Assembly: GCA_018660835.1 (NCBI GenBank)
Contig: JABJJN010000020.1
Span: 310,001-374,000, forward strand
Length of the DNA: 64,000 bases
Reading direction: 5' to 3'
DNA from: Gemmatimonadota bacterium
GTDB lineage: Bacteria > Latescibacterota > UBA2968 > UBA8231
The notes under the pieces were generated by a model, which saw nothing but the letters and a program-made list of their open reading frames with translations, did not search any database and was not told the origin of the DNA. Shown piece after piece: positions 6,513 to 21,169 of the stretch (position 1 is its first letter; every line of letters starts with the position of its first letter). The translations under genes were made by a program, and so were the position numbers.

Positions 6513-7258
6513 TTTTTCTCGACGCCTCCGTAGGGCTTGCCTTCGAAGATTGCTCGCACCTCATCTGAGTTCGTCGCCTTGCTCAGTTTACCCATACGAT
6601 CCTCCTCTTCCTCACGCAGCTTGTGCAGATTGTCCACGACTTGCTGCAGATGCTGCGCCGGAAACTTGCAGGCACCATTCTCATCCATGTGAACGATCTC
6701 ACCCGGGGCCACGTCCATCCCGGAAACGTGCACGGGTACATTGACTGCGTATACCTCCTGGCCACCGTGTCCAGGGGCGACACCACTGGTCAGATACTGG
6801 AAGGACATGGGGCGGATCTCGTCAATGTCGCGGGAGGGACCATTGGACACGGCACCAACGCAGCCAAGGGCTTTCATCGCCGTCGTCATATTGCCGCCCG
6901 AGAGACCGATCTTTCCCGCCAACTCTGGTGGGAACTTTTGTTGAAAACAGAAAATCGAGGGTTTTGGCGAGGCGTCGATGGCATCGAAGACATCCATACC
7001 ACTGAGACGACCAAAATCAGGATCCTTCGGACCATAGACTGCAGTCACCGCATAGCCGGCGAGCGCCCCTATCTCGGGATACCAGCAGCGCAGTCTGTCG
7101 TCCGTATACCAGTTCTCTGTCAAGGGATTGTACAGACTCAGACAAAGTGGATGCTGCGGATAGGTAGCGACGACATTCGTCACCGAGGGCGTATCGAACT
7201 GACGGATCTCCTCGAGGAGCTCACGCTCCCGCTCGAAATCACGAGCTCCCTGTGTCAT
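6509..7258 (-). CDS. RraA-like family protein (HMG/CHA aldolase-like)
   Basis: Protein of 249 residues related to the RraA/4-hydroxy-4-methyl-2-oxoglutarate aldolase fold. The central GGNMTTAMKALGCVGAVSNG followed by PSRDI matches the family's conserved glycine-rich loop and Arg-Asp metal/pyruvate site. VHMDENGACKFP corresponds to the later conserved D-x-x-G segment. Related proteins cleave pyruvate-containing aldols or decarboxylate oxaloacetate; some are RNase E inhibitors, which is unlikely here given the catabolic context. It is the first gene of the operon and overlaps the TonB-receptor start by 4 bp. A C-terminal charged tail (LREEEEDRMGKL) is longer than in compact RraA. The exact reaction is unknown. 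Confidence 0.82.
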   Translation of the reverse strand: MTQGARDFERERELLEEIRQFDTPSVTNVVATYPQHPLCLSLYNPLTENWYTDDRLRCWYPEIGALAGYAVTAVYGPKDPDFGRLSGMDVFDAIDASPKPSIFCFQQKFPPELAGKIGLSGGNMTTAMKALGCVGAVSNGPSRDIDEIRPMSFQYLTSGVAPGHGGQEVYAVNVPVHVSGMDVAPGEIVHMDENGACKFPAQHLQQVVDNLHKLREEEEDRMGKLSKATNSDEVRAIFEGKPYGGVEKK

Positions 7259-7376
7259 CTATCACCTTCTTCGTTGGCCGAACGCAAATCTGGCCGATAT
7301 AGGACCTGAGTTTGGTCGATAGGGTAGGCGGTGGTTGGGTCATCATCAATCAGACCAATGCTGGCACAGACCAACT

Positions 7377-7736
7377 TCATCTGTCTATGACCACCTGGAT
7401 CTCGTCCGGGCCATTCGGGACGACACAGAGAAACTCGAAAGCCTCGTCTCCCTGGGCCTCGTACGAATGTGGCACATTTGCCGGGATGAAGACGGAATCC
7501 CCCGCCGACACCTGCACTATTTCGTCGCCGATCCGCACGCGAGCGCTACCTCGAAGCACGTATTGACCGTGCTCTACAGTGTTGGTGTGCAGTGGCATGC
7601 CACCCCCTGGCTCCATGCGAAAGCGCCGCATGGCGAAATTTGGCATCTCATCGCTGCCAAGCAGAATCTGGCGCGATGCATCTGTGCCACCTGGAACGGT
7701 CTCAAATGGCACATCGGCCGCGCGGCGAACAGTCAT
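7377..7736 (-). CDS. Small cupin-domain protein
   Basis: Single-domain cupin of 119 residues. The first cupin motif is visible as PLHTNTVEHGQYVLRG and the second as GDSVFIPANVPHSYEAQG, providing two to three histidines and a glutamate for a metal site. Proteins of this size act as small dioxygenases, isomerases or ligand-binding proteins, and no substrate can be inferred. It lies 75 bp downstream of the aldo/keto reductase on the same strand and may be the last gene of the unit beginning with the FliG/MotA chimeras. The 118 bp between it and the RraA-like gene hold no gene. Confidence 0.85.
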   Translation of the reverse strand: MTVRRAADVPFETVPGGTDASRQILLGSDEMPNFAMRRFRMEPGGGMPLHTNTVEHGQYVLRGSARVRIGDEIVQVSAGDSVFIPANVPHSYEAQGDEAFEFLCVVPNGPDEIQVVIDR

Positions 7737-7811
7737 GGGGAGCCTGTATGGAAAGTGGGAGTTTTCTAAGGCTTGGAAAGATACGTTTCGGAGCCTGCCC
7801 GCGTCACTCCA

Positions 7812-8777
7812 TCAGGACTGACCTGCTTCCATGGCATCTGCATAGGTGTCACGTGCCTGCATCAACCGCGCCAACAGATCTGGCGGCACATTGAGCGTGG
7901 TACCACGCACCATCTCGTCCACGTGCTCTTCAGATTCTGCCCCACCCAGGACGCTTGTTACACCTTCCTGATGCACCATCCATGCGACGCAGATTTCAGC
8001 GCGTCCAACATTCATCTCTGCCGCAACGGCATCGATCTGAGTACACAGCTTCGCCAATGACGACCCGGGATCTGGTGTCTTCTCCGGTGCAAGGTCACCT
8101 CGATCCATGGGAGAGAATGCAAGTAGGCCGAGTCCGCGGCGTTGCAGCATGGGGATCATCTGTCGTTGCAGCCAGCGAGTGCGAGATCCTCCATCCTCCA
8201 TCAATGCCGCTCCGCCAATATTGAAATAGTCCTCCACCCCAACCGGTGAATCCGTGCCCTCTTCCTGCGCCGCGGCAAGGATCGCCTCGACCAGATCCGG
8301 CGGATGGTTGGACACACCCCAGTAGCGAATCAGACCCGCATCGATCAACCCTTGCATGCGGGTACACAGTGCGTTGGCTGGCGTCGTGCCATCTGGTTGA
8401 TGCAGCAGATACAAATCGATCACATCACGTTGCAGTCGCCGGCGACTTCGGTCAACGGATTCGCGCAGCAGGGCCTCGGTGAAAGGGATCACCTCCTCTA
8501 TGTTGTCTTCGTCTCGGGGAGACACCTTCGTACACACAACCACATCGTCCGGTGCTTTTTCGAGGGCTTGGCCAAGAAGCCGCTCCGATCCTCCCCAGCC
8601 ATAGGCATTGGCGGAATCGAAGAAGCGCACCCCCACATCGAGGCAGTAGCGCAAAACGGCTTCGGCTCGGGTGTTGGTCTCGACGCGCTCCATGGTGCGA
8701 AAAGCCGTCCCCTGACAGAGACGGGTGACCTGCAGATCTGATGTGCCAAATGCTGTTGTTTCCAGGTCACCCGCCAT
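7812..8777 (-). CDS. Aldo/keto reductase
   Basis: NAD(P)-dependent reductase of 321 residues in the AKR TIM-barrel superfamily. Visible landmarks are the N-terminal FGTSDLQVTRLCQGTAF, the catalytic Asp/Tyr segment FFDSANAYGWGGSERLLGQAL, the catalytic Lys in VVVCTKVSP, the DVIDLYLLHQPDG histidine strand, and the cofactor-binding C-terminal half (LLAFSPMDRGDLAP; SVLGGAESEEHVDE). The start is ATG at 8777 with a GGAG 7 bases upstream, only 11 bp after the second FliG/MotA chimera, so the two are probably co-transcribed. Substrate unknown. Confidence 0.9.
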   Translation of the reverse strand: MAGDLETTAFGTSDLQVTRLCQGTAFRTMERVETNTRAEAVLRYCLDVGVRFFDSANAYGWGGSERLLGQALEKAPDDVVVCTKVSPRDEDNIEEVIPFTEALLRESVDRSRRRLQRDVIDLYLLHQPDGTTPANALCTRMQGLIDAGLIRYWGVSNHPPDLVEAILAAAQEEGTDSPVGVEDYFNIGGAALMEDGGSRTRWLQRQMIPMLQRRGLGLLAFSPMDRGDLAPEKTPDPGSSLAKLCTQIDAVAAEMNVGRAEICVAWMVHQEGVTSVLGGAESEEHVDEMVRGTTLNVPPDLLARLMQARDTYADAMEAGQS

Positions 8778-8788
8778 ATCTGATCTCC

Positions 8789-10159
8789 CTATGCGGCTGG
8801 ATGCGGGTAACCCGCATCATATACTCGTTGACCTGCTTCGACCGCAGCTTTCCTCGCTGCTTCGACCAGATCCTGTGGTTTGTGCCCCATCTGAATACCC
8901 GCCAACCCGGCGATCACCATCGCTTCGCGTCGTTTCAGACGTACGCGCACATCCTGGACACTGTCCTTCATTACCGCAAGGATCTGAGGCGCGGACAGAT
9001 GATCCGTGATGGTCGCCTTCAGGCCGGCGGTCAAGACCTCATCATCATCGACCAACTCAAGAAGAGGCTCGAGAGCCTCAATACCTTCACGCCGGGCAAT
9101 CGTGGCCAGATCCGCATAGAACACGGACCAGTCCTCGTCGCTCATCGACATCAATGGACTCTCCCGCAATCTTGCCAGCAGATCATCGAGAACAACTCGC
9201 CCCTCAGATACCATCAGCTTGCCAGGCGTGTCACGAAAATAGGTCTCCAGCTTGGTGCGGACGATCGCCGGATTGTCGAGAGACTGAATCGACATCCAAC
9301 CCTCGATCGCCATCTGTCCTCGCACCGTGCGATGACGCAGAATCGTCGCCCCTCGCGTTTCAACCAGATCCTGCACCAGATCGGGTTCGGTGCCATCCAC
9401 GATGTACTGAACCGCCTCAGTCAATAATGTGGGTGCCCCACCCACCAAAGACTGCAATGACAGGATGCCGGCGACTCGTGCTTGCTCTGCGATATGATAA
9501 AGCGTCTCCGCCAGTTCCGATTCGGAGGCCTCCAGCAAGGGTCTCCCCATGTGCACAAATCGCTCTTCCGCGAGCAGATCAACGATGGCAGGTCCGGAAC
9601 GATCAGCCCCAGGATCTTCCCACTTCATCCAGCCCTGCCGCCCGAGCTCAACGAGCTGCCCTCGGACACGCGCCGTTGCCTGGGCCACCTCTTCCTCGTC
9701 CGCCTCACCCAGCAAGCTCACTTCCGTCTTGATGAAATCCTGAACCCGCTCAGACATATTGCAGTAGAACCGAGCCTTTGATTTTTCTGAGAGGGTTGGC
9801 AATACTCGCACCAGATCGAGCTGATCGACTTCGCGCATGGCGATCTGGATACTTCGATCGCTCAGGTGCTCAAGCGTGTCCAGATCCTGGACCCGCACCG
9901 TGTCGAGCAACTCCTCCCACTTGTTACATCCGTATGAACAGGCCAAAGCATGCTGCGACTCCTGCCGCGACAGGTCGAAGGCGGTCAGTTGATCGGCGCT
10001 CGCTTCAAGAGACAAACTGCTGGCACGCGGCAAATACGTCACAATACGATCGATGGCATCCACCGCACCTGCCTGAAAGGCCCTGTGCAGATCGCGTGCT
10101 TCTTTCTTGAGAAACTCGACGTTCGCCCGATCGGGCAGCGTGAGAGCTGGAGCAGACAT
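8789..10159 (-). CDS. FliG C-terminal / MotA cytoplasmic chimera (paralogue B)
   Basis: Soluble protein of 456 residues with no signal or membrane segment. Residues 8-87 form an N-terminal domain of the type that precedes ankyrin repeats in many bacterial proteins (FLKKEARDLHRAFQAG; QHALACSYGCNKWEELL). Residues 92-183 align with the FliG C-terminal domain: LSDRSIQIAMREVDQLDL and NMSERVQDFI compare with LTDRELQILLREVDQKDL and NMSERVRTFI in the FliG at 15.9-16.9 kb. Residues 213-309 and 342-437 are two copies of the MotA cytoplasmic part (IARREGIEALE; VDGTEPDLVQD). In the first copy the loop joins directly to the MotA-like tail IEGWMSIQSLDNPAIVRTKL, without TM3-TM4. Comparison is by eye. It is a tandem paralogue of the gene at 10386-11708 and lies upstream of an aldo/keto reductase. 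Function unknown. Confidence 0.85.
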   Translation of the reverse strand: MSAPALTLPDRANVEFLKKEARDLHRAFQAGAVDAIDRIVTYLPRASSLSLEASADQLTAFDLSRQESQHALACSYGCNKWEELLDTVRVQDLDTLEHLSDRSIQIAMREVDQLDLVRVLPTLSEKSKARFYCNMSERVQDFIKTEVSLLGEADEEEVAQATARVRGQLVELGRQGWMKWEDPGADRSGPAIVDLLAEERFVHMGRPLLEASESELAETLYHIAEQARVAGILSLQSLVGGAPTLLTEAVQYIVDGTEPDLVQDLVETRGATILRHRTVRGQMAIEGWMSIQSLDNPAIVRTKLETYFRDTPGKLMVSEGRVVLDDLLARLRESPLMSMSDEDWSVFYADLATIARREGIEALEPLLELVDDDEVLTAGLKATITDHLSAPQILAVMKDSVQDVRVRLKRREAMVIAGLAGIQMGHKPQDLVEAARKAAVEAGQRVYDAGYPHPAA

Positions 10160-10188
10160 AATTCACCCTTATCCGTGGTGTGCCTGAC

Positions 10189-10320
10189 GTCCGCTGTAGC
10201 AGGCAGGAAGAAGGGTCTGAGCGATGGCCAAAATACCTATGTCCATCGCTTCGCGATTGCCGTGCAACCGCTGACGTGGTACAGCGCCAAAGTCGAGTGG
10301 GTTCAACCCTTCCCGCGGAC
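10189..10320 (-). promoter_or_regulatory. Candidate structured leader B upstream of chimera B
   Basis: Non-coding 132-base element ending 29 bp before the ATG of chimera B. On the minus strand it begins GTCCGCGGGAAGGG and ends with GCGGAC, so its ends can pair. A small hairpin GGGT-TGA-ACCC follows the first block. The leader of chimera A (11737-11817) has the same layout with hairpin GGGC-AAA-GCCC, a compensatory change at the fourth pair. The shared blocks could alternatively be duplicated promoter DNA rather than RNA. Confidence 0.5.
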
Positions 10321-10325
10321 AAAGC

Positions 10326-10371
10326 GGCTCCCCGATGAGCCTTACCGATTGAGATACCTCACCGGGGAGCC
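10326..10371 (-). terminator. Nine-base-pair inverted repeat between the chimera genes
   Basis: GGCTCCCCG at 10326-10334 pairs perfectly with CGGGGAGCC at 10363-10371. A GAGCC at 10337-10341 can instead pair with GGCTC at 10326-10330, giving two mutually exclusive hairpins. It sits 14 bp downstream of the chimera A stop and immediately upstream of leader B. No U-run follows, so it could be an mRNA-processing or attenuator-like structure rather than a classic terminator. Confidence 0.4.
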
Positions 10372-10385
10372 CATGTCAATTGAAA

Positions 10386-11708
10386 TCAGCTGGTAGCCGT
10401 CTCCGTCACGGTCTTCGTCACCACGTCAGGATGCGCCCCTGCCACAACAGCAAGCAGGCCTGCGCTGGCGGCGAAGTGGTGCCGTTCCAATCGCGAGATC
10501 TCAGCTTCCATCTGCGCCATGAGATCAGCGCGCAGTTCGGCGTGATCCCGTGCAGCAATCACTTGCTCCAGTCCCGCCTTGAGCAGAGGTAGCTCGACGA
10601 CTTGAGCCGCCGAAGCCAGCGCCTCGAGACCGCCATTGCGTGCGGCAAAACCCAGATGCAGAAACAGGACAGCCAGATCACCCGGTGCGCGCGCCGCCAG
10701 CCAGCCACGCTCGATCCAGTCACGCAATTCATCAGCCGTGATCTGCTCGCGTGATCGATTCGGCGTCTCACCGACGCCCGCATCGAGATAGTGGACCTGC
10801 ATCTTGTGGAAGATGATCCATGGATTGTCCCCCGCCTGCAGAGAAGCGATGCCTTGGATCACCATGTCCAATCGCACGCGCCGGTTACGCGCCATCGTCT
10901 CGGTGCGCACCCGCAGGATGTCAGCGATCAGCTCCGGGTTGGTCCCATCTACGGCCAAACGGATTCCCTCCCTGAGTGCATTCACTCGACGACCGCGCGG
11001 GATATAGGACTCCAATGCGAGAATGCCATCGCGACGGGCAACTTCGGTCAGCTCAGCATAGATCTCGGCGATCTCCTCCACTTCGAGCTCTTCGAAGGAG
11101 ATATCTCCCACGGGATCATCATGTTGAACGGGCGGTGTCAGGTCCACTTCCCCCTCGAAGGGCAGAGCATCCGCCGCCGGCGGCCAAGTGATCTGACCAT
11201 TGTCTCGCAGCGTTTCGGCCCACTCCAGGATCCTCTGGCGCGACACAGTCGGCTCGTGAGCGGGCAGATCGCGTGCCAGCGTCTTCGACTCCTCTATGAT
11301 GAAACTGCGCACACGACGTGACATGTTCGTGAGGAAACGTCCACGCAGAGCGTCGGAGGCACCGACGATGGCACGGGATAGATCCTTCTGTGAGATCTGC
11401 CGCAGCAGTGTCTGCGTCTCTCGGTCATTCAGACGCGAGAGTTCATCGAAGTCGGATGTTTCGACGGCGCCCCGCAGACCATCCCAACTGCTGAGACCGT
11501 ATTCGCGTGCCAGAACATGCTGCGCTTCCTGCAACGACAGATCCATCGCGCGTAGAGCGTCATCGAAAAGTACGGTAGCTCGTGGTAGATGTTCCTGGAT
11601 GCGTGTGACGGCTTCATGATCACCGTCAGCAAAGGCCTTATGCAGACCCTTGGCCTGCTTGCGCAGGTTTTCAAGACTCGCCCGGGCGGGCAGCTTCTTA
11701 CTGGACAT
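10386..11708 (-). CDS. FliG C-terminal / MotA cytoplasmic chimera (paralogue A)
   Basis: Soluble protein of 440 residues with the same domain order as paralogue B. Residues 6-84 are the ankyrin-associated N-terminal domain (LRKQAKGLHKAFADGD; QHVLAREYGLSSWDGL). Residues 88-178 are FliG-C-like (LNDRETQTLLRQISQKDLSR; FLTNMSRRVRSFI; LRDNGQITW). Residues 211-309 are a MotA-cytoplasmic module (EIYAELTEVARRDGILALE; LAVDGTNPELIADIL; MVIQGIASLQAGDNPWII). Residues 342-436 are a weaker second copy (FAARNGGLEALA; LLAVVAGAHPDVV). The membrane helices that separate these segments in real MotA are missing. The start at 11708 is chosen for the GAGAGAGGG upstream; an in-frame ATG also exists at 11729. The acidic linker at 183-210 is probably flexible. 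No known family has this architecture to my knowledge; the function is not known. Confidence 0.85.
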   Translation of the reverse strand: MSSKKLPARASLENLRKQAKGLHKAFADGDHEAVTRIQEHLPRATVLFDDALRAMDLSLQEAQHVLAREYGLSSWDGLRGAVETSDFDELSRLNDRETQTLLRQISQKDLSRAIVGASDALRGRFLTNMSRRVRSFIIEESKTLARDLPAHEPTVSRQRILEWAETLRDNGQITWPPAADALPFEGEVDLTPPVQHDDPVGDISFEELEVEEIAEIYAELTEVARRDGILALESYIPRGRRVNALREGIRLAVDGTNPELIADILRVRTETMARNRRVRLDMVIQGIASLQAGDNPWIIFHKMQVHYLDAGVGETPNRSREQITADELRDWIERGWLAARAPGDLAVLFLHLGFAARNGGLEALASAAQVVELPLLKAGLEQVIAARDHAELRADLMAQMEAEISRLERHHFAASAGLLAVVAGAHPDVVTKTVTETATS

Positions 11709-11736
11709 ACTACACCCTCTCTCGTTCAACGCCCGT

Positions 11737-11817
11737 GTCCGCTGGTCAGGCTGGAAAGAAGGTCAATGTGAGGACTGCAACGGCAAAATCGAAGTGGGCT
11801 TTGCCCTTCCCGCGGAC
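11737..11817 (-). promoter_or_regulatory. Candidate structured leader A upstream of chimera A
   Basis: An 81-base element 28 bp before the chimera A start. On the minus strand it opens with the same 14 bases as leader B (GTCCGCGGGAAGGG), has a GGGC-AAA-GCCC hairpin, shares a CTTCTTTCCAGCCTG-like block, and closes with GCGGAC, complementary to its first six bases. The middle is about 50 bases shorter than in leader B. Conservation of ends and hairpin with a divergent middle suggests regulatory or RNA structure; a duplicated promoter is the alternative. Confidence 0.5.
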
Positions 11818-12023
11818 GTGGCAGCGCCTCCGAGCGCTACCCAATAGGTATTGAAGGGAAAGACGAAAGTCAACTGGGAGGCACAGCCATTCCCTGGGCC
11901 GGACTCCCGCGCGCTCGTGATTCACTAGGACGGAACTCAGAAATGCACTACTGGCAAATTCACAGGCAAGGGCATTCATTTCACCAGATTCCTGAGTGTC
12001 CAGTATCCGAAAGAGAGATTCCG
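11818..12023 (+). other. Intergenic region between divergent genes
   Basis: Together with leader A this makes about 315 bp between chimera A (minus) and the jelly-roll-like gene (plus). It must hold promoters for both. An upstream in-frame ATG at 11943 would extend the plus-strand gene, but the extension has no recognisable sequence. No other structure was seen. Confidence 0.4.
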
Positions 12024-12545
12024 ATGAGCCCACGGATCATTGATCTGGAAAATGCCGATCACAGAGATTTGCTGAATGCCGAATGGCGTTACGCCGATGG
12101 GCTCGTGCCCGGTGAGCCCAATGGCGGCCTGGTCAACGAACTGGCAGAAACACCTGCCCGCCTGGCGGACTACGACGACAGCAACTGGGATATCATAGAC
12201 GATATTCAACTCGGTCGATCAACAGGATTCTGCTTCGGCTGGTATCGAATGACCGTCACACTGCCGGAGACCATCGACGGTGAACTCCTCGCAGGAAGGT
12301 CAGTCTTTTTCGAAACCTGTGTCGACGACTACGGCGAGTTATGGATCGACTCAGAGTGTGACATGGCCTTTGGCGAAACAGGTCGTGGTTGTGTGTCGGG
12401 TTTCAACTATCCACAACGAGTCTGCCTCGCAGAGCAGGCCGAACCAGGTCGTGAACACGTGATCGCCGTACTCGCTGTCAACGGGCCCTTTGGCCGCCCT
12501 GGTGGTGGCATCTTCCTGCGGTATGCACGTCTGACGGTCGAATAG
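12024..12545 (+). CDS. Stand-alone galactose-binding-like (jelly-roll) domain protein
   Basis: Protein of 173 residues resembling the N-terminal sugar-binding jelly roll of GH2-type glycosidases and sialate esterases. Pattern features include the aromatic strand GFCFGWYRMTVTLPE, an FFETCVDDYGELWIDSE stretch typical of these domains (..DD.aevwvNg..), and a final GGGIFLRYARLTVE strand. No catalytic domain is attached and no signal peptide is visible. The start at 12024 has a GAGAG Shine-Dalgarno, whereas the ATG at 11943 does not. It is divergent from chimera A. The role may be carbohydrate binding, by analogy only. Confidence 0.6.
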   Translation: MSPRIIDLENADHRDLLNAEWRYADGLVPGEPNGGLVNELAETPARLADYDDSNWDIIDDIQLGRSTGFCFGWYRMTVTLPETIDGELLAGRSVFFETCVDDYGELWIDSECDMAFGETGRGCVSGFNYPQRVCLAEQAEPGREHVIAVLAVNGPFGRPGGGIFLRYARLTVE

Positions 12546-12574
12546 ATCGCCGAGGATGGCCGCAGAGTCCTGAC

Positions 12575-13432
12575 TCAGTGCAAAGGTCGACCGCAGCCGG
12601 CAAAAGTGCGCCCATCCCAGTCAATGCGCACATACTTCGGATAGATTTGGTCATCCATCGTGTCCGCACAGGGTCCTGCCGTCAACGTGACGATCAACGA
12701 TTGATCGCCTGAAGTTGTTGAGTACGTGGTGCGGTGTGCCTCGAGATCATTGGCGGGCCCAGGACACGGGGCCAGCGTCTCTTTTTGGCCATAGTCGTGG
12801 ATGAAGCGAATCTGACGACCCTCGGTGATTTCCAGCGTCCATCCCGGCTCATTGCCCGTCGCACGAAAATCGACCCCATCGAGCTTGGCCTGTGCCCAGA
12901 TCGCTGCACGTCGATTCTCATGGGGCTGAGTGTGCATCGGACCCTCATCAGCCAACCTTGTCAGGGGCCGGCAAGCGAGGAGGAGTCCCAATGTCAAAGC
13001 GAAGCACAGCCATTTGCAGTGGGATGACATGACTGCCATGAACGATGAATAGTGGTGATGGTGCTCGTGTGGATGATCATGATCGTGACCATGATCATCC
13101 TCGATCCGCATCTGCTCGGATCGATCGCTGATCTGCTGCGGGGCCAGCAGACCTTGGCTCGTCGTCACCAGATGCAGTGTCCGCAGCCATCTTTCATAGT
13201 ACGTCGATGACTCACCCTCTTGCTCGGCCTTGGCAATTTGCTCAGCGAGGGTCTCGCTGAACTGCTTCCATGCAAAGGCACCCTGCTCGTTCAGTGCAAC
13301 GGCCAGGCCAAAGACGCGCGCCTCCCATGGGGAAGTGAAGAGGATTTCACCATTCTCTCTTGGCAGCGCAATCTCCGGCGGCATCTGTGCGACTGTGGCG
13401 TCAACTGTCGCGTCGTCAACTAGCGGATCCAC
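12575..13432 (-). CDS. Nitrile hydratase accessory protein fused to His-rich linker and lipoprotein domain
   Basis: Open frame of 285 residues with two parts. Residues 1-100 match nitrile hydratase activator proteins ([47 protein letters not shown]), which help load the metal into the enzyme. Residues 112-127 are a His-rich tract ([14 protein letters not shown]) suited to binding cobalt. Without a stop the frame continues into a hydrophobic segment with a lipobox-like LLLAC (Cys154) and a ~110-residue COG3650-like domain ([29 protein letters not shown]). The start overlaps the alpha-subunit stop by 17 bp. An internal ATG at 13039 or 13030 could start a separate lipoprotein, though no Shine-Dalgarno is evident. 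Fusion, internal start, or an assembly indel are all possible. Confidence 0.75.
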
Positions 13433-14003
13433 GAGCTACCTCCCCTACACCGATCATCGAGTCGCGCGTGACGATCTCTGCCAGCGCTTCTTCGCTCATT
13501 CCCTCCGTGCCCGCAGGACGCTTCGGCAACACCATGTAGCGGATGTCCGAATTGCTGTCCCACACACGGACTTCGGTCGATTCCGGCAGGTCGAGATCGA
13601 ATTCCTTCAACACCGTTCGGGGTTCGCTGACAGCACGAGATCTGTATGCGAAAGACTTGTACCATGTCGGTGGCAAGCCGAGAACCGACCACGGATAACA
13701 GGAACACAGAGTGCAGACAACCATGTTGTGTACTTCATCGGTATTCTCCGTCACCACCAATTCAGCCCCATGCGGATCGGTAAAACCAAGCTCCGCGATC
13801 GCTGCTCTGCCATCCGCCAGCAACCGTTCTTTGTACGCCGGATCCGACCAGGCCCTTGCCACAACCTGCGCGCCCCGCATCGGACCGATATCCTCCTCGT
13901 AGTTCTTGACGATCTCATCGATTCGAGTCGACGTGATCAACCCCTTCTCTACCAGCAAGGATTCAAGGGCCTTCGTCAGAACCGCCGGATCTTCACTCGC
14001 CAT
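13416..14003 (-). CDS. nthA: Nitrile hydratase alpha subunit, cobalt type
   Basis: Catalytic subunit of nitrile hydratase, which hydrates nitriles to amides. The length of 195 residues is close to normal. The metal-binding claw is [10 protein letters not shown] at residues 96-105. Cys97, Cys100 and Cys102 are the ligands, and Thr98 and Tyr103 are the residues typical of the Co(III) rather than Fe(III) class. Later family sequence includes [29 protein letters not shown] and [11 protein letters not shown]. The start overlaps the beta-subunit 3' end by 11 bp and the stop overlaps the accessory gene, giving the beta-alpha-activator order common in cobalt enzymes. Confidence 0.95.
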
Positions 14004-14664
14004 CAGTTGCTACCTCCTCCTCCAGATACGACTCCCACATATCCAATACGACACTGCTGTTCGTCTCAGCCTGGTCGCCCCACAGTTCGACTCCATCGAA
14101 CCGCACGGCGTACATCGGTTGTGGGCCGTCGAAACCATCGATCGGCTCGTCATCTTGAAAACCTTGCGGCCTGTATCGAAGGATCACCGTGCCTCGACGC
14201 CCTCTCACGTATCGCGGCAGCCGCGTGTGACCATCCGGGTGAATCGTGCGGGCCACGACCTGATCACCCACGTCAAAACGCGGCTCCGCGGCGTCGACTG
14301 AATCGACGGCGCTCCGGGCCTCGCCGGCACTGAGCGCCTTTGCATAGGCCTCAGGGTCATCCGCGGGCAGGTCTGCCTTCTGATTCGTGGCGTACTTCGC
14401 CACGGAAGCATCGAATTCCTCCTGCGTGATGACACCGCTCTGCATCAGCGTGTTGATGCGGGCCAAGAGCCAGCGTTTGTAATAGCTCGATCCCAGATAG
14501 ACAGCAGGGTCCAGTGATTCCAGACTGAAGCGGCCACCACCATTCACGGCCATCGCGTTGGATATTCCATGAACACGGGCCTCCCACTCGTCGTGGTAGG
14601 ACAGTTCGTCGCGGACAATGGGACCGAATCCATGCATCCCACCCATATCATGTACGCCGTCCAT
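13993..14664 (-). CDS. nthB: Nitrile hydratase beta subunit
   Basis: Partner subunit of 223 residues. The N-terminus [16 protein letters not shown] is diagnostic of the family. It is followed by the helical [12 protein letters not shown] and [20 protein letters not shown] regions, and a C-terminal SH3-like barrel ([44 protein letters not shown]). The start at 14664 is preceded by AGGAGAG and matches the conserved family start. A much longer upstream open reading extension overlaps the GH113-like gene in another frame and is rejected. First gene of the nitrile hydratase operon. Confidence 0.95.
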
Positions 14665-14712
14665 CAAACTCTCCTGTGTCGTTTTGCGTCGTCGCAATAA
14701 ACAAACCCCTTC

Positions 14713-14740
14713 GCCGGTTGATCTCAAATCACCTACCGGC
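14713..14740 (-). terminator. Probable terminator of the GH113-like gene
   Basis: On the minus strand GCCGGT plus TGAT pairs with ATCA plus ACCGGC, with a 3-base bulge, followed by GAAGGGG and a T-rich run (TTTGTTT). The stem begins in the last codons of the lipoprotein gene. It is plausible as a Rho-independent terminator before the nitrile hydratase operon. Confidence 0.45.
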
Positions 14741-15784
14741 ACCGAACCACCGTGACATGACCCGCTGTGCCGGTTTTGTCTGCGGCAGATAGTCATCGTC
14801 GTCACCCAGATCATCACCGGGCCGCACATCCGCATCCCACTCCCATATGAAGAGCCCCGCAAACCAGTCCTGTTCCCAAAACACCCTGAACATCGCCTCG
14901 TATGCATCCGCTTGTTCCTGCACATCCACGGCGGCCTGCACATCGAAGTTCCACGGCTCCACGGCACCACCGGCAATGCTGCGGTAGCCAATCTCCGTAA
15001 ACAGAATCGGCCGATCCCAGGTAGCACACAGACGGTCTATGAGTCGTACATGGGGCCGCCAGCCTCTGATCAGTTCATCGACACTGGCATCGGTCCTGTG
15101 CGTCAGCGGGAAATAGGCGTGAATGCCGATGAAATCAACTTGATCCCAGAAGCCAACGTGCACCGCATCGTCCCAGTTGGCGCCGTATGTCAGAGGTCCT
15201 GAATAGATCTGACGAATCTCGCCGATCAGAGTAGACCAGAAGGCGGGACGCTCCCTCGTCGCACGCCCTAGTTCGACACCGATGCTGAACATATCTGCCT
15301 GCTGCTGTTCGGCAAGAAGTGCATAGTGAAGGATGAACGTGCGATAGTCGGCTTCCCAGGTCTCCCACTCCGTGTCGGTGTCGAAACCGATGGTCCCGCG
15401 CCACTGACCAGGTACATCCTGGGTTAGCCAGATATGCGGCTTGAGCAATGTGCGGATACCGCGGGCCCGGGCACGCGTAATCGTCTCCGTCAGACCCGCG
15501 TCGGTCTCACCCCAGCGCACACGCGTCGTGCGCAGTCGAATGTCAGGATCATCGAAGCGGGACTGCCAGCCAAAGGGGGTCACCGCAATCCAGCGTACCC
15601 CTGCCGCATCGAGTTCATCGAGAGCCACTTCCGCAAGTTGATTGGATACATCGAGACTGACACCGGCGATCTTGGCAGGTTGGTCGGCAAAGGGATTCGC
15701 TTCGTGGCGCACGGGATTGTCGTCGCCACAGCCGGCGAGACTGATGATCGTCGCACACAGCAGACATTTCGTGGTGAGTCTCAC
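14729..15784 (-). CDS. Lipoprotein with GH113-like (beta-mannanase type) TIM barrel
   Basis: Lipoprotein of 351 residues: signal LCATIISLAGC with acylated Cys19. The rest resembles GH113-type glycosidases. The strand GVRWIAVTPFGWQ, the RIRxxLKPHIWL-type strand (GIRTLLKPHIWL), acid/base candidate Glu171 in SIGVELGRA, and nucleophile candidate Glu264 in PILFTEIGYRS all occupy expected places. The C-terminal FAGLFIWEWDAD strand completes the barrel. The GTG start at 15784 lies inside the 38-bp repeat array after fliG and has no clear Shine-Dalgarno, so translation could be inefficient or coupled to fliG. It probably acts on mannan or a related glycan; the exact substrate is uncertain. Confidence 0.8.
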   Translation of the reverse strand: MRLTTKCLLCATIISLAGCGDDNPVRHEANPFADQPAKIAGVSLDVSNQLAEVALDELDAAGVRWIAVTPFGWQSRFDDPDIRLRTTRVRWGETDAGLTETITRARARGIRTLLKPHIWLTQDVPGQWRGTIGFDTDTEWETWEADYRTFILHYALLAEQQQADMFSIGVELGRATRERPAFWSTLIGEIRQIYSGPLTYGANWDDAVHVGFWDQVDFIGIHAYFPLTHRTDASVDELIRGWRPHVRLIDRLCATWDRPILFTEIGYRSIAGGAVEPWNFDVQAAVDVQEQADAYEAMFRVFWEQDWFAGLFIWEWDADVRPGDDLGDDDDYLPQTKPAQRVMSRWFGAGR

Positions 15785-15785
15785 A

Positions 15786-15875
15786 CGAAGGCGTCGTCGA
15801 AACGACGCCGATTCCTCTCTACACGAAGGCGTCGTCGAAACGACGCCGCTTCCTCTCTACACGAAGGCGTCGTCG
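15786..15875 (-). repeat. Tandem 38-bp repeat with UUCG-loop hairpins spanning the fliG 3' end
   Basis: Two full 38-bp units and a partial third. Each full unit contains a perfect 8-bp stem (GGCGTCGT / ACGACGCC) around a TTCG loop on the minus strand, at 15790-15809 and 15828-15847. Unit starts are 38 bp apart (15790, 15828, 15866). The third copy lies inside the fliG coding end (encoding DDAFV and stop), so the array looks like a tandem duplication of the fliG 3' end. It ends at the GTG of the downstream lipoprotein. The hairpins may terminate transcription or stabilise the mRNA. Confidence 0.8.
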
Positions 15876-16897
15876 GTGTCCCCACGCACGATCGTGACCT
15901 GGCCTTGCTCTTCCAGTTGACGCACCTGCTGCACGATTCGCAGTTGCACTTCCTCCACCTCACTCAGACGCATGGGGCCGAGAAACTCCATCTCCTCCGA
16001 GATGAAGGTGCGCACGCGTTCGGACATATTGCCGAGAATCTTGTCCTTCAACTCTTCCTCCGCCGCCTTCAGGGCGATGACAAGATCCTTCTGATCTACT
16101 TCGCGCAACAGAATCTGTAGTTCACGGTCCGTCAGTTTGTTGATGTCGGCAAAGGTGAACATCAGGTTGCGCACAGCCTCTGCAACTTCCGGGTCCTGTC
16201 CGTCCATCTGATCGAGGACATTCTTCTCGACACTTGAACCAGTGAGGTTGAGAATGTCGGCGACGACCTTCGGCCCACCAACATCCTGGTTGCCACCAAG
16301 GACGTCACGCAGACTGGCTTCCAGAGCTTCTTCGATTTCTTTAAGGACGGCGGGCGTGATATTCTCCATCGTCGCGATACGGTAGGCCACGTCCGCCTGC
16401 AACCGTTCGGGAAGATGCGCCAGAATGCCAGACGCCTGCGCTGGATCCAACTGCGACAGAATCAGGGCGATCGTCTGCGGATGTTCGTGCGAGATGAAGG
16501 GTGCGACCTGCTCGGGGGCAACATTCTTGAGCATGTAGAAACCGGAGGAAACACTGCTTGCGACACGGTCGAGGATTTCCTGCGCCCGCCGGGGGCCAAC
16601 AGCGCGTTCCAGGGCGCCACGAGCGAAATCCAAACCACCTTGCGCCACCCACTCGCCAGCCAGCAGGTGCTGCTCAAATTCATCGAGCACCTTATCCTGC
16701 ATCTCGACGCTGACCGTCTTGAGATTTGCCACAGCTTGGGTAATCTCTTCGATCTCATAGTCGGAGAGAAACTTCATCACTTCACCCGCCGCTTCCTGAC
16801 CAAGAGCGACAAAGAGAATGCCGATCTTGGTCATGACAGGAAGGGAGTCTTCTGCCGCCTCTCCATCAGCGTCATCAGGCTGGCGATCCTCTGCCAT
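15857..16897 (-). CDS. fliG: Flagellar motor switch protein FliG
   Basis: Rotor protein of 346 residues, normal length for FliG. N domain about 20-105, middle domain with the conserved EHPQTIALILSQL (138-150) and GGPKVVADILN (207-217), C domain about 250-338. The C domain retains residues that contact MotA in characterised FliG: LVIALK (Lys277), NMSER (Arg294), EE (301-302) and PMRLS (Arg310). The start at 16897 has GGAG 8 bases upstream; an in-frame ATG at 16978 adds 27 unfamiliar residues. No other flagellar gene is seen in the window, which is unusual because fliG normally sits in a fliF-fliG-fliH operon. Two proteins carrying FliG-C domains are encoded 4-8 kb downstream. Confidence 0.95.
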   Translation of the reverse strand: MAEDRQPDDADGEAAEDSLPVMTKIGILFVALGQEAAGEVMKFLSDYEIEEITQAVANLKTVSVEMQDKVLDEFEQHLLAGEWVAQGGLDFARGALERAVGPRRAQEILDRVASSVSSGFYMLKNVAPEQVAPFISHEHPQTIALILSQLDPAQASGILAHLPERLQADVAYRIATMENITPAVLKEIEEALEASLRDVLGGNQDVGGPKVVADILNLTGSSVEKNVLDQMDGQDPEVAEAVRNLMFTFADINKLTDRELQILLREVDQKDLVIALKAAEEELKDKILGNMSERVRTFISEEMEFLGPMRLSEVEEVQLRIVQQVRQLEEQGQVTIVRGDTDDAFV

Positions 16898-17320
16898 GAT
16901 CAAACTCCGGTACGGGTGCGGGACAACCGACTCAGAGTTCCTGAGGCGCTCATTGGTCCAGTCGTGCTGGACGTGCATCGTTGCGCTGTATCCGGCTACT
17001 CTCCTTTGAACATAGTCAACTAAGAGTAGGAAAGCCGAACGTCCCGATTCGTGTTGCCCATCCCACCGGCGAGCTTAGGTCAACGCGCCGTCTGGGGGGA
17101 CACGCGGAATCGCGCACGCGGATCCGCGTGCAGACGCGATTTCGCGCGCTTCTGCGCTCCTCCGGGGCCCGCTGAACGGCATTTCCTCTCGAGTAGAGCG
17201 GCCAGACACACGCGTGAGTCGGACTGGCACTGCTATTGCGATGAGACAAGAGCCGCAGACAGCTCAAAGCTGCCACACGGGGCCGATCGCTCTCACTCGC
17301 TACGCCAGTCGAGGTTTTTC
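16898..17320 (+). other. 423-bp divergent promoter region of fliG and the fibre gene
   Basis: No gene is supported here. An in-frame extension of the fibre ORF back to 17051 would place 90 odd residues before a clear signal peptide and is rejected. The region contains a perfect 18-bp palindrome (17114-17131) within a CG-rich tract full of CGCG steps. It must carry promoters for fliG (minus) and for the fibre gene (plus); no confident -35/-10 pair was seen. Confidence 0.5.
17114..17131. promoter_or_regulatory. Perfect 18-bp palindrome
   Basis: GCACGCGGATCCGCGTGC reads the same on both strands. It lies 190 bp upstream of the fibre-protein start and about 217 bp upstream of fliG. It could be an operator for a dimeric regulator or a fortuitous CG-rich palindrome. 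No second copy was noticed in the window. Confidence 0.35.
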
Positions 17321-20300
17321 ATGAGAACCACCCTTGTTGGAATCATTGCGACCCTTGGCCTGCTCACGACTGCCAATGCACAGGTTCCCAAGACGCTGAC
17401 CTACCAGGCTACCCTCTCCGATACAAACGGTGTGGCCCTGGAGGACGGCACATACGAGATCACCTTCTCGATCTATCCGTCGACCACGTCGATCACCCCA
17501 CTGTGGGTGGAAGCTCATCCGTCGATTGCGACGAGCAACAGCGTGATGACGGTGGTGCTTGGATCAATCGCGCCCATCGGCATCGATTTCGATGACCCCC
17601 GATATCTGGCCATCTCGGTGGATGGCAATGGCGAGATGACCCCGCGCATCGAACTGACGGCAGTGCCCTCGGCTCGCACCGCTGCCACCGTGGAAGCAGG
17701 CGGCGTGCGCACCGCCTCCCTTGCCGACTCGTCAGTGACATCAGCGAAAATCGCCGATGGCAGCGTGCAGGCTGCGGATCTGGCAGGTGGGCAGGTGGTG
17801 AAGAGCGTCAATGGCCTGACCGATGCGGTAACTTTTGCGGCCGGATCCAACGTCACAATCACCAGTAGTGGCAGCACAGTGACCGTCGCCAGCAGCAGCG
17901 ACCTTGCAGACCTGTCCGTTACGAATGGCAAGATTGCCGGAAATGCTGTCACGAGCACCAAGATCTCCGATGGCAGTATTCAGGCTGGTGATCTGGCGAC
18001 TGGGCAGGTCGTGAAGAGTGTGAATGGCCTGACAGATGCCGTGACACTGACTGCCGGCGCGAATGTGACCATCACCTCCAGCGGTAGCACTGTCACCATC
18101 ACCTCGAGTGGTGGTGGTGGCGGCGGCGGCAGCACAGTTTCCAGCTCCGACATCGTCGATGGTGCCGTGACATCTGTGGATATCCTCGACGGTACCATCA
18201 CGGCAGCTGACATCGCCGCTGGTGTACTGTCCTCTTCGATTGCTGCCGGCGCGGTCACGACGACAGAGATTGCTGACGGCACGATCACCGCAACTGATAT
18301 GGGAACCGGTGCAGTGACGACGACGCAGATCGCCGATGGTACGATTGCGGCGGTTGACCTGGCAGCCAGCGCGGTGTCAACATCCGAGATTCTGGACGGA
18401 ACCATCGCCGCCGCGGATTTGGCCACAGGCTCTGTGACAACGACCGAGATCGCAGATGGCACCGTGGCGAGTGCCGATATCGCGGACGGAACGATTGCCG
18501 CCGTAGATCTTGCCGCTGGCGCCGTGACGACGACCGAGATCTTGGACGGCACGATTGCAACGGCAGATCTGGCAACGAGCGCTGTCACGACGACGCAGAT
18601 CGCCGATGGAACCGTGGCGACGGCAGATCTTGCGGCGAATGCAGTGACGGCAGCCCAGATCACCGACGCGACGATCACGGCGGCCGATATCGGCGCCAGT
18701 CAGGTCGTGAAGAGTGTGAACACTCTAACTGATGCGATCACCTTCGCCGCAGGCGCAAACGTTACGATTACGCCGAGTGGACAGACGCTGACGATTGCTG
18801 CCAGTTCGAGTGCAGCCAACACGCTGGACCAGGCCTATGACCAGGGCGGTGCAGGCGTGGGCCGCACGATCACGGCTGACAATGGTGCCGTGGACATAGC
18901 CGGGGCAGATGGACTGACGGTGAATGGCAAGATCGGTATCGGCACGACGACTCCCGCGGAGAAGCTGCACATCATGGGTGGGATACTTGTTGAAGGCTCA
19001 ACGGCAAGCTTTGCCCAGAGAGGCCTTCACATAGATATCGAGACAAGCGATCCAGCTCATACACTGACCAGAGTTGTCGTAGGAGAAACGGGGTCAAACC
19101 ACGGCTCCATGAGTCTGCAGACGACCAATAGCGGTGGGACAGGTGAGGTGGTTCGCTTGACGAATACGGGGAGCGTCGGCATCGGCACCGCGACTCCTGC
19201 GGAGAAACTGCATGTCTACGGCAACGTGCGCCTCGACAATGCGGGCAACGACAACACTATTTCCGGCGGCGTCGGCGGCATCGGCTCAATCAATTTCCGG
19301 GACAACGGCACTGGCCGAATGTCCTTCGATCACACCGAGAGATACATATTTAACATCGGCGGTGTGGAGAAGGTGCGCATTCTCGACGATGGCCATGTCG
19401 GCATTGGCACGGCGGCGCCGGCAGCGCTGCTGACCTTGAATCAAGCCGTGGGCACCGATGTGGGAGGCATGCGTCTGGTCGATGGTGCTGTGACGTGGTC
19501 GATGTATGGCGACGCGGGGGGTGATTTCCACCTCAAAGGCGGCGGAACCGCCACGGGTGAAATCGTCATCGACTCCGGAACCGGCAATGTCGGCATCGGC
19601 GCGGCGAGTCCGGGACAGCTCCTGTCAGTGCACAATCCCGGCACGGCCGGCTCGGCCTATCCCCTGCGGCTCATAAACGACATTTCGGCCGCTGCCAATA
19701 CCGGCGTGGGCATTGAGTTCGGCTTCCAGAACGGCACGCAGATATTGAGCAATATCGAATCGATTCACATCGGAGACAGTACGACGGATTTACTCTTCCG
19801 GACCCAAAAGACCGGTGGTCTCGCGGAAATCGCACGGATAACGGGCGATGGCAATTTCGATTTTGCCGGAAACACGAATGTCGTCATCGGCCGCACGGTG
19901 GCGCAGAATCCCACACCAACATCGTTGACTATCCGATCGAACATCGCCAACACGGGTGCAAGCCCAAACAGTGGAGCACACCTCGTCCTCTACTCCGGCT
20001 TCAATGCCGGGGGTAACTACGGACAGATCGAATACAACACGCAGTCCGGCGGCGCCGCGGGCGCCGATGCAGGAGCCCACATCTTCAGCACGGGCACAAC
20101 ATCCCTCGCTGAAGCCATGCGTATCGACCTAACCGGCAAGGTCGGCATCGGAACTGCCACTCCACCGGCACTGTTCTCCGTCGAGGAGGGGTCCATCAAT
20201 CTGAATCACTCGAACACACCCTTCATGAGGTTCCAGAGAGCTGGTGCAGAGCATGGGTACGTTGGGAATGCGAATGCGCTGTTTGTGGGCTCGACAGCAG

Positions 20301-21169
20301 ATTTTGGCATAAGAGCCGAAAACAACCTGATCTTCGGTATCAGTTCCTCTGAGTTCATGAGGCTCAGCAGTGGTGGCAAGTTCGGCATCGGGGAGGCAAG
20401 CCCTGTGCGAAGGCTGCACGTGACAGATGCCAGCGCTGCTGTGGCCGCCTTCAATCGCACGACGGATGATGGTCCTATCATCTCTCTCCAGCAGGATGGT
20501 GTGGAAGAGGGGACCATCTCCGTTTCCACTACGACCGTCTCGTATAATGCGTTCACCGGATCACATTACGCCTGGACGGACCGCGAGATCGAGATGGCAA
20601 CTCTGGTGACGCTCTCCGGTGACAATCACCGACTGCACGGGACAACTGACTCGGAGATCATCTACGGCATTACTCCTTCGAACAAGGCCAATGACCCGGC
20701 CATCCTTGGCGCCTATCTGCAACTGCAGGAGTCGACGGAGCCAGCCAGCAATGACAATCCTCATTTGGTGATGGCCGTGGGCAATGGCTTGATGTGGGTT
20801 GCGGACAATGGCGATGACATTCAAGTCGGCGACTTCCTGATCTCTGCGGATCTCGCAGGCCATGCGATGAAGGATCCGGGCACCTACGAAACGAGTTACA
20901 TCGTGGCACGGGCAGCGGAGCCCGTGAGTTGGTCAGATGTAGAAGACTTTGTGGTAGATTCCAGAGCGAAGGGGCTGAAGCACCGTAAGATCTCCGTCTT
21001 CTTCGAGAGCTTCACGCGTCACAACTCGGCGCAAGAAATCGCTTCTCTCAAGGCTGAGAACGTGCAATTGCGAGCACAGTTGTCTGCCTTGGCAACGGCC
21101 GTAGACAGACTTGCTGGGCAGATAGCGTTGACGGCCAGTCAGACACAGAATCTGGCCTCGCGAGACTGA
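17321..21169 (+). CDS. Secreted fibre-like repeat protein
   Basis: Exported protein of 1282 residues. The start at 17321 gives a clean signal peptide (LVGIIATLGLLTTANA). Residues ~20-130 form an N-terminal domain (VPKTLTYQATLSDTNG..LEDGTY). Three copies of a QVVKSVN(G/T)LTDA(V/I)T..AG.NVTIT module follow, near 17790, 18005 and 18700. A Ser/Gly linker, and tandem ~20-residue AVTTTEIADGTIAAADLA-type repeats come next. Six copies of a vGIGTatPaekLhv motif mark tail-fibre-like domains between about 18930 and 20420. The C-terminus carries a compact domain (GNGLMWVADNGDDIQVGDFL) and a leucine-heptad coiled coil (ENVQLRAQLSALATAVDRLA). The organisation resembles trimeric fibres of phage tails and of FCB-group surface proteins. 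It is probably a surface or extracellular fibre; no S74 autoprotease motif is visible. It is followed by the dockerin gene after 1 bp. Confidence 0.8.
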   Translation: MRTTLVGIIATLGLLTTANAQVPKTLTYQATLSDTNGVALEDGTYEITFSIYPSTTSITPLWVEAHPSIATSNSVMTVVLGSIAPIGIDFDDPRYLAISVDGNGEMTPRIELTAVPSARTAATVEAGGVRTASLADSSVTSAKIADGSVQAADLAGGQVVKSVNGLTDAVTFAAGSNVTITSSGSTVTVASSSDLADLSVTNGKIAGNAVTSTKISDGSIQAGDLATGQVVKSVNGLTDAVTLTAGANVTITSSGSTVTITSSGGGGGGGSTVSSSDIVDGAVTSVDILDGTITAADIAAGVLSSSIAAGAVTTTEIADGTITATDMGTGAVTTTQIADGTIAAVDLAASAVSTSEILDGTIAAADLATGSVTTTEIADGTVASADIADGTIAAVDLAAGAVTTTEILDGTIATADLATSAVTTTQIADGTVATADLAANAVTAAQITDATITAADIGASQVVKSVNTLTDAITFAAGANVTITPSGQTLTIAASSSAANTLDQAYDQGGAGVGRTITADNGAVDIAGADGLTVNGKIGIGTTTPAEKLHIMGGILVEGSTASFAQRGLHIDIETSDPAHTLTRVVVGETGSNHGSMSLQTTNSGGTGEVVRLTNTGSVGIGTATPAEKLHVYGNVRLDNAGNDNTISGGVGGIGSINFRDNGTGRMSFDHTERYIFNIGGVEKVRILDDGHVGIGTAAPAALLTLNQAVGTDVGGMRLVDGAVTWSMYGDAGGDFHLKGGGTATGEIVIDSGTGNVGIGAASPGQLLSVHNPGTAGSAYPLRLINDISAAANTGVGIEFGFQNGTQILSNIESIHIGDSTTDLLFRTQKTGGLAEIARITGDGNFDFAGNTNVVIGRTVAQNPTPTSLTIRSNIANTGASPNSGAHLVLYSGFNAGGNYGQIEYNTQSGGAAGADAGAHIFSTGTTSLAEAMRIDLTGKVGIGTATPPALFSVEEGSINLNHSNTPFMRFQRAGAEHGYVGNANALFVGSTADFGIRAENNLIFGISSSEFMRLSSGGKFGIGEASPVRRLHVTDASAAVAAFNRTTDDGPIISLQQDGVEEGTISVSTTTVSYNAFTGSHYAWTDREIEMATLVTLSGDNHRLHGTTDSEIIYGITPSNKANDPAILGAYLQLQESTEPASNDNPHLVMAVGNGLMWVADNGDDIQVGDFLISADLAGHAMKDPGTYETSYIVARAAEPVSWSDVEDFVVDSRAKGLKHRKISVFFESFTRHNSAQEIASLKAENVQLRAQLSALATAVDRLAGQIALTASQTQNLASRD
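18145..18696 (+). repeat. Tandem ~60-bp coding repeats inside the fibre gene
   Basis: Imperfect repeats encode the 20-residue unit AVTTTxIADGTIAxADLAxx (variants with EILDG or QIADG). Roughly eight to nine units occur in a row. They suggest a beta-solenoid or collagen-like extended rod built by internal duplication. The repeat makes long shadow reading frames on the minus strand that should not be annotated. Confidence 0.85.

Follow-up and report, generated by a model that had tools for sequence, protein, structure and literature searches.

Soluble-predicted chimeras of the FliG torque domain and MotA torque modules behind a conserved RNA leader in a Latescibacterota genome

The contact between FliG in the rotor and MotA in the stator turns the flagellum. 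The present locus raises the question of what these two faces do when both are placed in one predicted-soluble chain that has no membrane part. It lies in a 64,000-nucleotide stretch of DNA from a Gemmatimonadota bacterium assigned by GTDB to the Latescibacterota (GCA_018660835.1, contig JABJJN010000020.1, positions 310,001 to 374,000; hereafter, the window), and it comprises two genes, A and B, whose products are 33% identical and share one domain order. Each chain begins with an N-terminal helical domain (NT), followed by FliG_C, MotA module 1, and MotA module 2, and each gene is preceded by a structured RNA leader (Table 1). If soluble as predicted, such a chimera offers a natural model of how rotor and stator touch, open to crystallisation or to assay. 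The genome holding A and B is designated G000; other G codes denote further genomes, L codes loci, and P codes related proteins.

Rotor and stator domains in one chain

An earlier note on this DNA had read a FliG_C domain in both proteins, and Pfam bears this out: FliG_C is the sole family over its cut-off (23.3 bits) in A (residues 93-181, E 2e-15, in the numbering of the 447-residue form that begins at an alternative TTG start 21 nt farther out) and in B (residues 92-176, E 6.4e-11). A and B share with complete FliG (PF14842 + PF14841 + PF01706) the C-terminal torque domain, its fold, and the R281 and D289 sites, but they differ in carrying fused MotA modules, in lying outside a flagellar operon, and in having no Pfam match to FliG_N or FliG_M at E <= 1, both of which are present in the canonical FliG of the window. 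TIGR00207 scores A and B at 32 and 29 bits against a cut-off of 226.7.

The two MotA cytoplasmic modules that the same note had described were recovered by profile-profile comparison. Module 1, taken from seven chimeras, matches 12 real MotA with 99.7% probability (E 1e-26, 41% identity), and the alignment covers both flanks of the TM3-TM4 stretch with a gap across TM3-TM4. Module 2 matches 12 real MotA in the loop part only (95.8% probability, E 8e-9) and matches module 1 over the whole module length (98.9% probability, E 2e-17). From these profile matches, module 1 and, via its likeness to module 1, module 2 are identified as the torque-generating interface and tail of MotA, which passages of PMC12505986 describe as specific to flagellar stators. 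In a search of PDB sequences, the MotA loop of 9lu9 (72-132) and its tail (214-254) match adjoining stretches of A, the tail directly after the loop. The NCBIfam MotA matches, far under their cut-offs, cover residues 215-281 of A (E 8e-15) and 212-270 of B (E 5.5e-12), and Pfam MotA_ExbB matches neither protein at E <= 1, probably as the bulk of this model corresponds to the membrane part.

In agreement with the reading of both proteins as free of a membrane segment, Kyte-Doolittle hydropathy stays below 1.6 throughout both chains, from which the two are predicted to be soluble; a weak peak of 1.61-1.83, one in each, occurs in 7 of 55 chimera-type proteins. Neither hydropathy nor the alignment, with its TM3-TM4 gap, yields in A or B the four transmembrane helices and ion channel of MotA. 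A and B thus have in common with the stator subunit MotA/PomA the cytoplasmic torque-generating interface, the C-terminal tail, and the R90 and E98 sites, but differ from it in the absent TM3-TM4, in the two modules per chain, and in the lack of an adjoining MotB: no MotB partner is among the neighbours of A and B, and the single MotB_plug match of G000 is on contig C101. Judging from the match ranges, the two modules of a chain likely interlock, the spliced long helix of each finding in the other a substitute for its TM3/TM4 partner. Two modules per chain would likely be needed because each spliced helix lacks that partner.

AlphaFold models of A and B (pLDDT 87 and 91, respectively) superpose on FliG and MotA/PomA structures, in line with the earlier assignment. 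Foldseek on its own is weak (best E 3e-3), and the fold assignment is based on the structure superpositions together with the sequence profiles.

PMC7564593 names contacts between MotA R90 and FliG D289 and between MotA E98 and FliG R281, and PMC8863984 gives the PomA equivalents of R90 and E98 as R88 and E96. We found that most of these salt-bridge residues are kept in the chimeras, counted over 55 unweighted proteins that include near-duplicates and fragments (one a piece of B). The R281 site of FliG_C is Arg in 63 of 67 copies (12 of 15 in the real FliG of these genomes), and the D289 and D288 sites are acidic in 64 and 43 of the 67. In module 1, the R90 site is Arg in 36 and Lys in 7 of 53 copies and the E98 site is acidic in 42 of 53; in module 2, counted without the sigma-factor fusion L131, the R90 site is Arg in all 39. 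The mean retention over the 61 columns conserved in 15 real FliG is 0.39, or ~0.44 minus seven gap columns. Columns Ec 242, 248, 258, and 279 are kept too, at 0.92-0.96, and are likely structural.

The architecture recurs in tens of proteins. A has 22 other relatives at E <= 3.5e-61 and B has 20 others at E <= 1.4e-27 (the matches P0044-P0064 include P0047, a fragment of B); the NCBI label of one B-like protein is merely FliG C-terminal domain-containing protein. A soluble MotA module scoring >80 bits is present in 8 of the 64 genomes of the phylum (G000, G001, G005, G007, G009, G019, G036, and G042), the G042 module sitting in a sigma-factor fusion and one in G036 running into a contig edge. 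Variants include a doubled FliG_C (L035, L036, L037), a single MotA module (L024), and FliG_C in the order NT-NT-FliG_C (L107, L114). Orthologues in G000 and G001 (L023, L034) differ by a dN of 0.19 and a dS of 1.50. A tree of the 90-residue FliG_C domains has low support and does not tell a single from a repeated origin of the fusions. No relatives of A were found in viral contigs and none of B in plasmids, and the titles and abstracts of the top-ranked literature matches describe neither such chimeras nor the leader RNA; the text passages of PMC12505986 contain 0 mentions of fusion, soluble, or Latescibacter.

Table 1. Positions in the window of genes A and B, their domains and leaders, and the canonical fliG.
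Feature	Position	Strand	Evidence or remark
Gene A	10386..11708	-	NT - FliG_C - MotA module 1 - MotA module 2; 440 aa from ATG
A, NT domain	11457..11708	-	own profiles
A, FliG_C domain	11187..11453	-	Pfam, predicted structure
A, MotA module 1 (torque loop + tail, without TM3-TM4)	10788..11096	-	own profiles, profile-profile comparison
A, MotA module 2	10410..10742	-	own profiles, profile-profile comparison
Structured RNA leader of A, ends on ATG	11706..11847	-	model R1, E 3.2e-26 (training row); covariation
Leader A, pseudoknot 5' strand GUCCGC	11812..11817	-	leader alignment
Leader A, pseudoknot 3' strand GCGGAC	11737..11742	-	leader alignment
Leader A, strand predicted to pair with ribosome-binding region	11754..11762	-	alignment, folding
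A, purine-rich ribosome-binding region, paired in conserved helix	11715..11723	-	alignment, folding
Gene B	8789..10159	-	domain order as in A; 456 aa
B, NT domain	9893..10150	-	own profiles
B, FliG_C domain	9632..9886	-	Pfam, predicted structure
B, MotA module 1	9236..9538	-	own profiles, profile-profile comparison
B, MotA module 2	8858..9196	-	own profiles, profile-profile comparison
Structured RNA leader of B, ends on ATG	10157..10352	-	model R1, E 1.1e-25 (training row)
Canonical FliG close to A, with N, M, and C domains	15857..16978	-	no leader match in front

A conserved RNA leader joined to the NT domain

Three observations go beyond the earlier note: the RNA leader before both genes, a family of leader-NT genes whose C-terminal parts are interchangeable, and further fusions of motor parts. 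The leaders of A and B measure 142-196 nt, and a 36-nt repeat in front of the two genes was the starting point for a leader pattern. The pattern GTCCGCGGGAAGGG-N5-CCCACT occurs twice in the window against 0.00 expected, and the core of the GTCCGCGGGAAGGG pattern is found at 11 of 221 loci, which after overlaps are seven distinct places, every one with a downstream NT frame. A loose version with one mismatch is unspecific (43 distinct places, 23 with NT downstream, the remainder mostly unrelated-looking). Alignment A9 comprises 21 rows picked because NT follows (23 places, two dropped), and shows a pseudoknot (GUCCGC/GCGGAC), a GGGY-RCCC hairpin, and two nested helices, the outer of which pairs CCUUCUUUC with the purine-rich ribosome-binding region. 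Over its 24 pairs, 95.8% of positions are paired versus 31-56% when the alignment is slid, and 13 pairs are changed on both sides versus a shuffled mean of 4.4.

A covariance model, R1, was built without the pseudoknot. It matches the window at exactly two places (E 3e-26 and 1e-25), both of them training rows. In 94 aligned R1 matches (90 distinct), the pseudoknot, absent from the model, is 98.3% paired, with five of its six pairs changed on both sides and 19 such cells versus 2.0 in shuffles; the remaining 18 pairs are 96.5% paired and 16 of them are changed on both sides. A conserved leader structure is thereby supported by covariation. Rfam gives no match at E <= 5 in window positions 10100-12000 and none at gathering score in the window, and on ten leader loci it gives one weak match (E 0.22) outside the leader; a promoter and terminator scan found nothing over shuffles.

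Translational riboswitches with pseudoknots have a conserved 5' leader and a helix over the ribosome-binding region. The leader here has in common with them conservation and covariation as a 5' leader, a pseudoknot, and a helix across the ribosome-binding region, but differs in giving no Rfam match at the above thresholds and in being tied to a single protein domain, NT, instead of to a pathway. We regard the leader, which covaries strongly, follows a single domain, and occurs in records from three or more bacterial groups, as a candidate for a new class of RNA regulators.

R1 matches number 97 in 24 of the 64 phylum genomes, 16 of them in G000. We examined 95 of these places (two weak ones in G007 were left out), 18 of which are training places. 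NT lies within 800 nt downstream at 76 of 95 and upstream at 0 of 95 (58 of 77 downstream without the training places), and at 67 of 95 it is encoded in the very frame that starts where the leader ends (52 of 77 without them); the leader and NT belong together. FliG_C or MotA follows at 17 of 95 places, B not being counted as its frame is clipped by a locus edge, and 17 places have no downstream profile match; these include L262, L310, and L321, the five places of one NT-less family (L292-L295, L297), and others that are weak leader matches. The parts found after NT, with the leader where checked, are ankyrin, sigma-54 ATPase, PhyH, PcfJ, methyltransferase, FliM, and FliG_C-MotA. The earlier remark that the N-terminal domain is usually found before ankyrin repeats agrees with 5 of 10 other NT proteins scanned; NT-ankyrin proteins of the same genomes share the leader and NT with A and B, ankyrin repeats replacing FliG_C-MotA.

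Some members of the family stand apart. The NT frame on contig C73 of G000 (L197) has no leader match. At L292, L293, L294, L295, and L297, the leader is followed by a family of 336-339 aa starting MQRY with no NT match (weak SnoaL in L292). The leader-NT genes L147:4200-5255 (-), L149:1596-2444 (-), and L148 carry a divergent FliM domain, identified by Pfam on L147 and L149.

Less likely than not, though a real possibility, is a broader reading in which leader and NT serve as a reusable front end. It would bring soluble copies of parts of host machines (FliG_C, the MotA loop, FliM, sigma-54 ATPase) under one RNA signal and control large machines by domain mimicry, the flagellar motor being the clearest target.

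The flagellar motor as a proposed target, and other explanations

Flagellar rod/hook genes (Flg_bbr_C) are present in 28 of 64 genomes, and in 7 of the 8 with soluble MotA modules versus 21 of the 56 others (p 0.017). Among the 24 leader genomes, FliG_C/MotA payloads occur in 5 of 10 flagellar versus 0 of 12 non-flagellar genomes, with G009 and G012 dropped (p 0.0096). Since neither comparison is kinship-corrected and flagellated genomes are also a source from which the domains could be copied, the motor as target of the chimeras is favoured, not proven.

We tentatively read A and B as RNA-gated soluble motor mimics that likely bind rotor and stator, or each other, via the kept contact residues, and we hold this at a little under an even chance. 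The leader would hide the ribosome-binding region and free it on a signal. FliG_C of A and B would then dock on MotA loops, and their MotA modules on the torque helices of FliG; such docking would occupy the torque interface, and rotor-stator engagement would be lowered or redirected. YcgR and EpsE are cytoplasmic brake or clutch proteins of the motor that touch MotA or FliG. By analogy, A and B would resemble them in location, contacts, and proposed outcome, but A and B have no PilZ match (Pfam, E <= 1) and copy the motor's own surfaces rather than use an unrelated fold. YcgR appears in the abstract of PMC10140304. The earlier suggestion of a mimic, competing scaffold, or brake appears partly supported, being compatible with the kept contact residues and the flagellar co-occurrence.

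Several observations weigh against the mimic reading. The K264 site of FliG_C is Lys in just 8 of 67 copies, the conserved residues past the torque helix (Ec 296-300) are mostly gone from the chimera FliG_C, and the E98 site of module 2 is Glu in no more than 14 of 39. Model B superposes on PomA with an rmsd of 9.1 over 156 residues. Single leaders are not clearly better folded than shuffled sequence (z 0.24 for A, -2.10 to 0.48 for six leaders), with a folding program that cannot represent the pseudoknot. In G009 and G012, FliG_C/MotA payloads are accompanied by FliG_C and FliM, but not one of four further flagellar markers was found, and the payload p rises to 0.085 if the two genomes are taken to be non-flagellated; G003, G004, G008, and G011 have flagellar genes and no soluble MotA module >80 bits. 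A and B are flanked by aldo/keto reductase and nitrile hydratase genes, outside a flagellar operon. Finally, the slots of FliG_C-MotA and FliM are elsewhere occupied by repeats of the ankyrin, HEAT, or TPR type, in keeping with a role as a general adaptor.

The last two points also fit a motor-independent scaffold, in which FliG_C and MotA would be reused as a generic binding pair like ankyrin, A and B likely binding each other or other regulators, and the motor would be only the origin of the domains. The same NT precedes ankyrin repeats, sigma-54 ATPase, PhyH, and methyltransferase, and ten sigma factors carry FliG_C where relatives have ankyrin, HEAT, or TPR families; A- and B-type relatives lie on contigs of identical length in four cases, as expected of a conserved pair. 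We regard this scaffold as a close rival, somewhat less likely than the mimic reading. Against it, FliG_C or MotA payloads occur almost only in genomes with flagellar genes, and it is the residues of the rotor-stator contact that have been retained, although the same would be expected of an A-B pair.

It is improbable that leader and NT are a spreading constant 5' unit fused to copies of host domains, many of which decay, so that the payload may lack a fixed function. The 97 leader places have very different C-terminal parts, NT frames after the leader are short or frameshifted at L262, L309, L310, and L321 (those at L262, L310, and L321 begin NT-like and then break off), and the leader also precedes NT genes of an Opitutaceae metagenome-assembled genome (MAG; L061) and of two gammaproteobacterial records, a MAG (L078) and the Olavius Gamma 3 endosymbiont (L057). 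Against such capture, however, the length and order of A- and B-type proteins are constant over tens of relatives, dN/dS is ~0.12 for one pair, and a repeat search of window positions 7000-18000 turned up nothing but the 36-nt repeat of the leaders and a 38-nt unit in tandem, with no inverted repeats. Very unlikely is a purely stator-side autoinhibitor, in which A and B would likely cap MotA via FliG_C and the MotA modules would just dimerise the protein; fusions of membrane MotA to FliG_C, found in this genome and in relatives (L021, P0024, L204), do tether the rotor domain to a stator subunit, but dimerisation alone would not demand an R90 site kept throughout module 2.

An anti-phage defence role was set aside, PADLOC having assigned no family to A, B, L021, or L131. 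Loss of flagella across genus g5 was likewise rejected as a generalisation. Searches for FlhA, FliP, and MotB found none in G005, G009, G012, or G015, but G005 has FliF-, FliE-, FlgC-, and FlgK-type frames (the FliF and FliE labels were given by eye), which makes its gaps assembly gaps. None of FlhA, FliP, MotB_plug, and Flg_bbr_C was seen in G009, G012, or G015; G015 (96% complete) has neither FliG_C nor FliM, whereas G009 and G012 have both. At L216, L217, and L219, the fliF-like and fliH-like frames of the flagellar locus are not separated by a frame of fliG size (by eye; L218 is unclear). None of the 19 FliG_C matches in G000 lies on C101, which carries the flagellar locus of that genome.

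Related fusions and neighbouring features

To judge by the C-terminal swaps (ankyrin, motor parts, sigma-54 ATPase), motor surfaces appear to have been recruited as regulatory modules, including in sigma-factor fusions. P0075-P0093 and P0096 are sigma-70-type (ECF) factors with a C-terminal FliG_C, and their relatives carry ankyrin, HEAT, or TPR instead (accessions that we take to be TPR). Ten sigma factors of 625-743 aa have FliG_C behind the sigma domains, including L131:3574-5463 (+) (G042), an ECF factor with three FliG_C and then a MotA module. L150:5162-6337 (+) (G000:C75) joins an ECF sigma factor to a FliM-like domain (FliM E 4e-6, 27.2 bits versus a cut-off of 27).

Membrane MotA with a C-terminal FliG_C, 377-423 aa long, is encoded at L021:7881-9011 (-) (G000:C97), in P0024, and at L204:3306-4556 (-) (G036); in L021 no recognised MotB frame adjoins it (by eye). 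L028:5423-8194 (+) (G000:C15) encodes a single-chain C-ring unit of 924 aa with FliM, a FliN-type domain, and a complete FliG. A FliG_C protein with a membrane helix is found at L030:6745-8517 (+), L108, L112, and L116-L119; L030 has a FecR match under its cut-off, and a sigma-70-like frame lies nearby in L030, L108, and L112 (by eye). FliG_C is also placed within a propeller/Y_Y_Y/SpoIIE regulator at L120:4047-8165 (-) (G011) and fused to a SnoaL-like domain at L123:5356-6153 (-). FliG and FliM at L104:5541-8458 (+) (G000:C8) are in a row with a receiver-domain-like frame (by eye), outside the flagellar locus.

The neighbours of A and B in the window are aldo/keto reductase, cupin, nitrile hydratase, and GH113 genes. 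A frame of 1372 aa at 17051-21169 (+) has no Pfam match at E <= 0.001. The 38-nt unit lies in two tandem copies at 15783-15858, at the end of the fliG gene.

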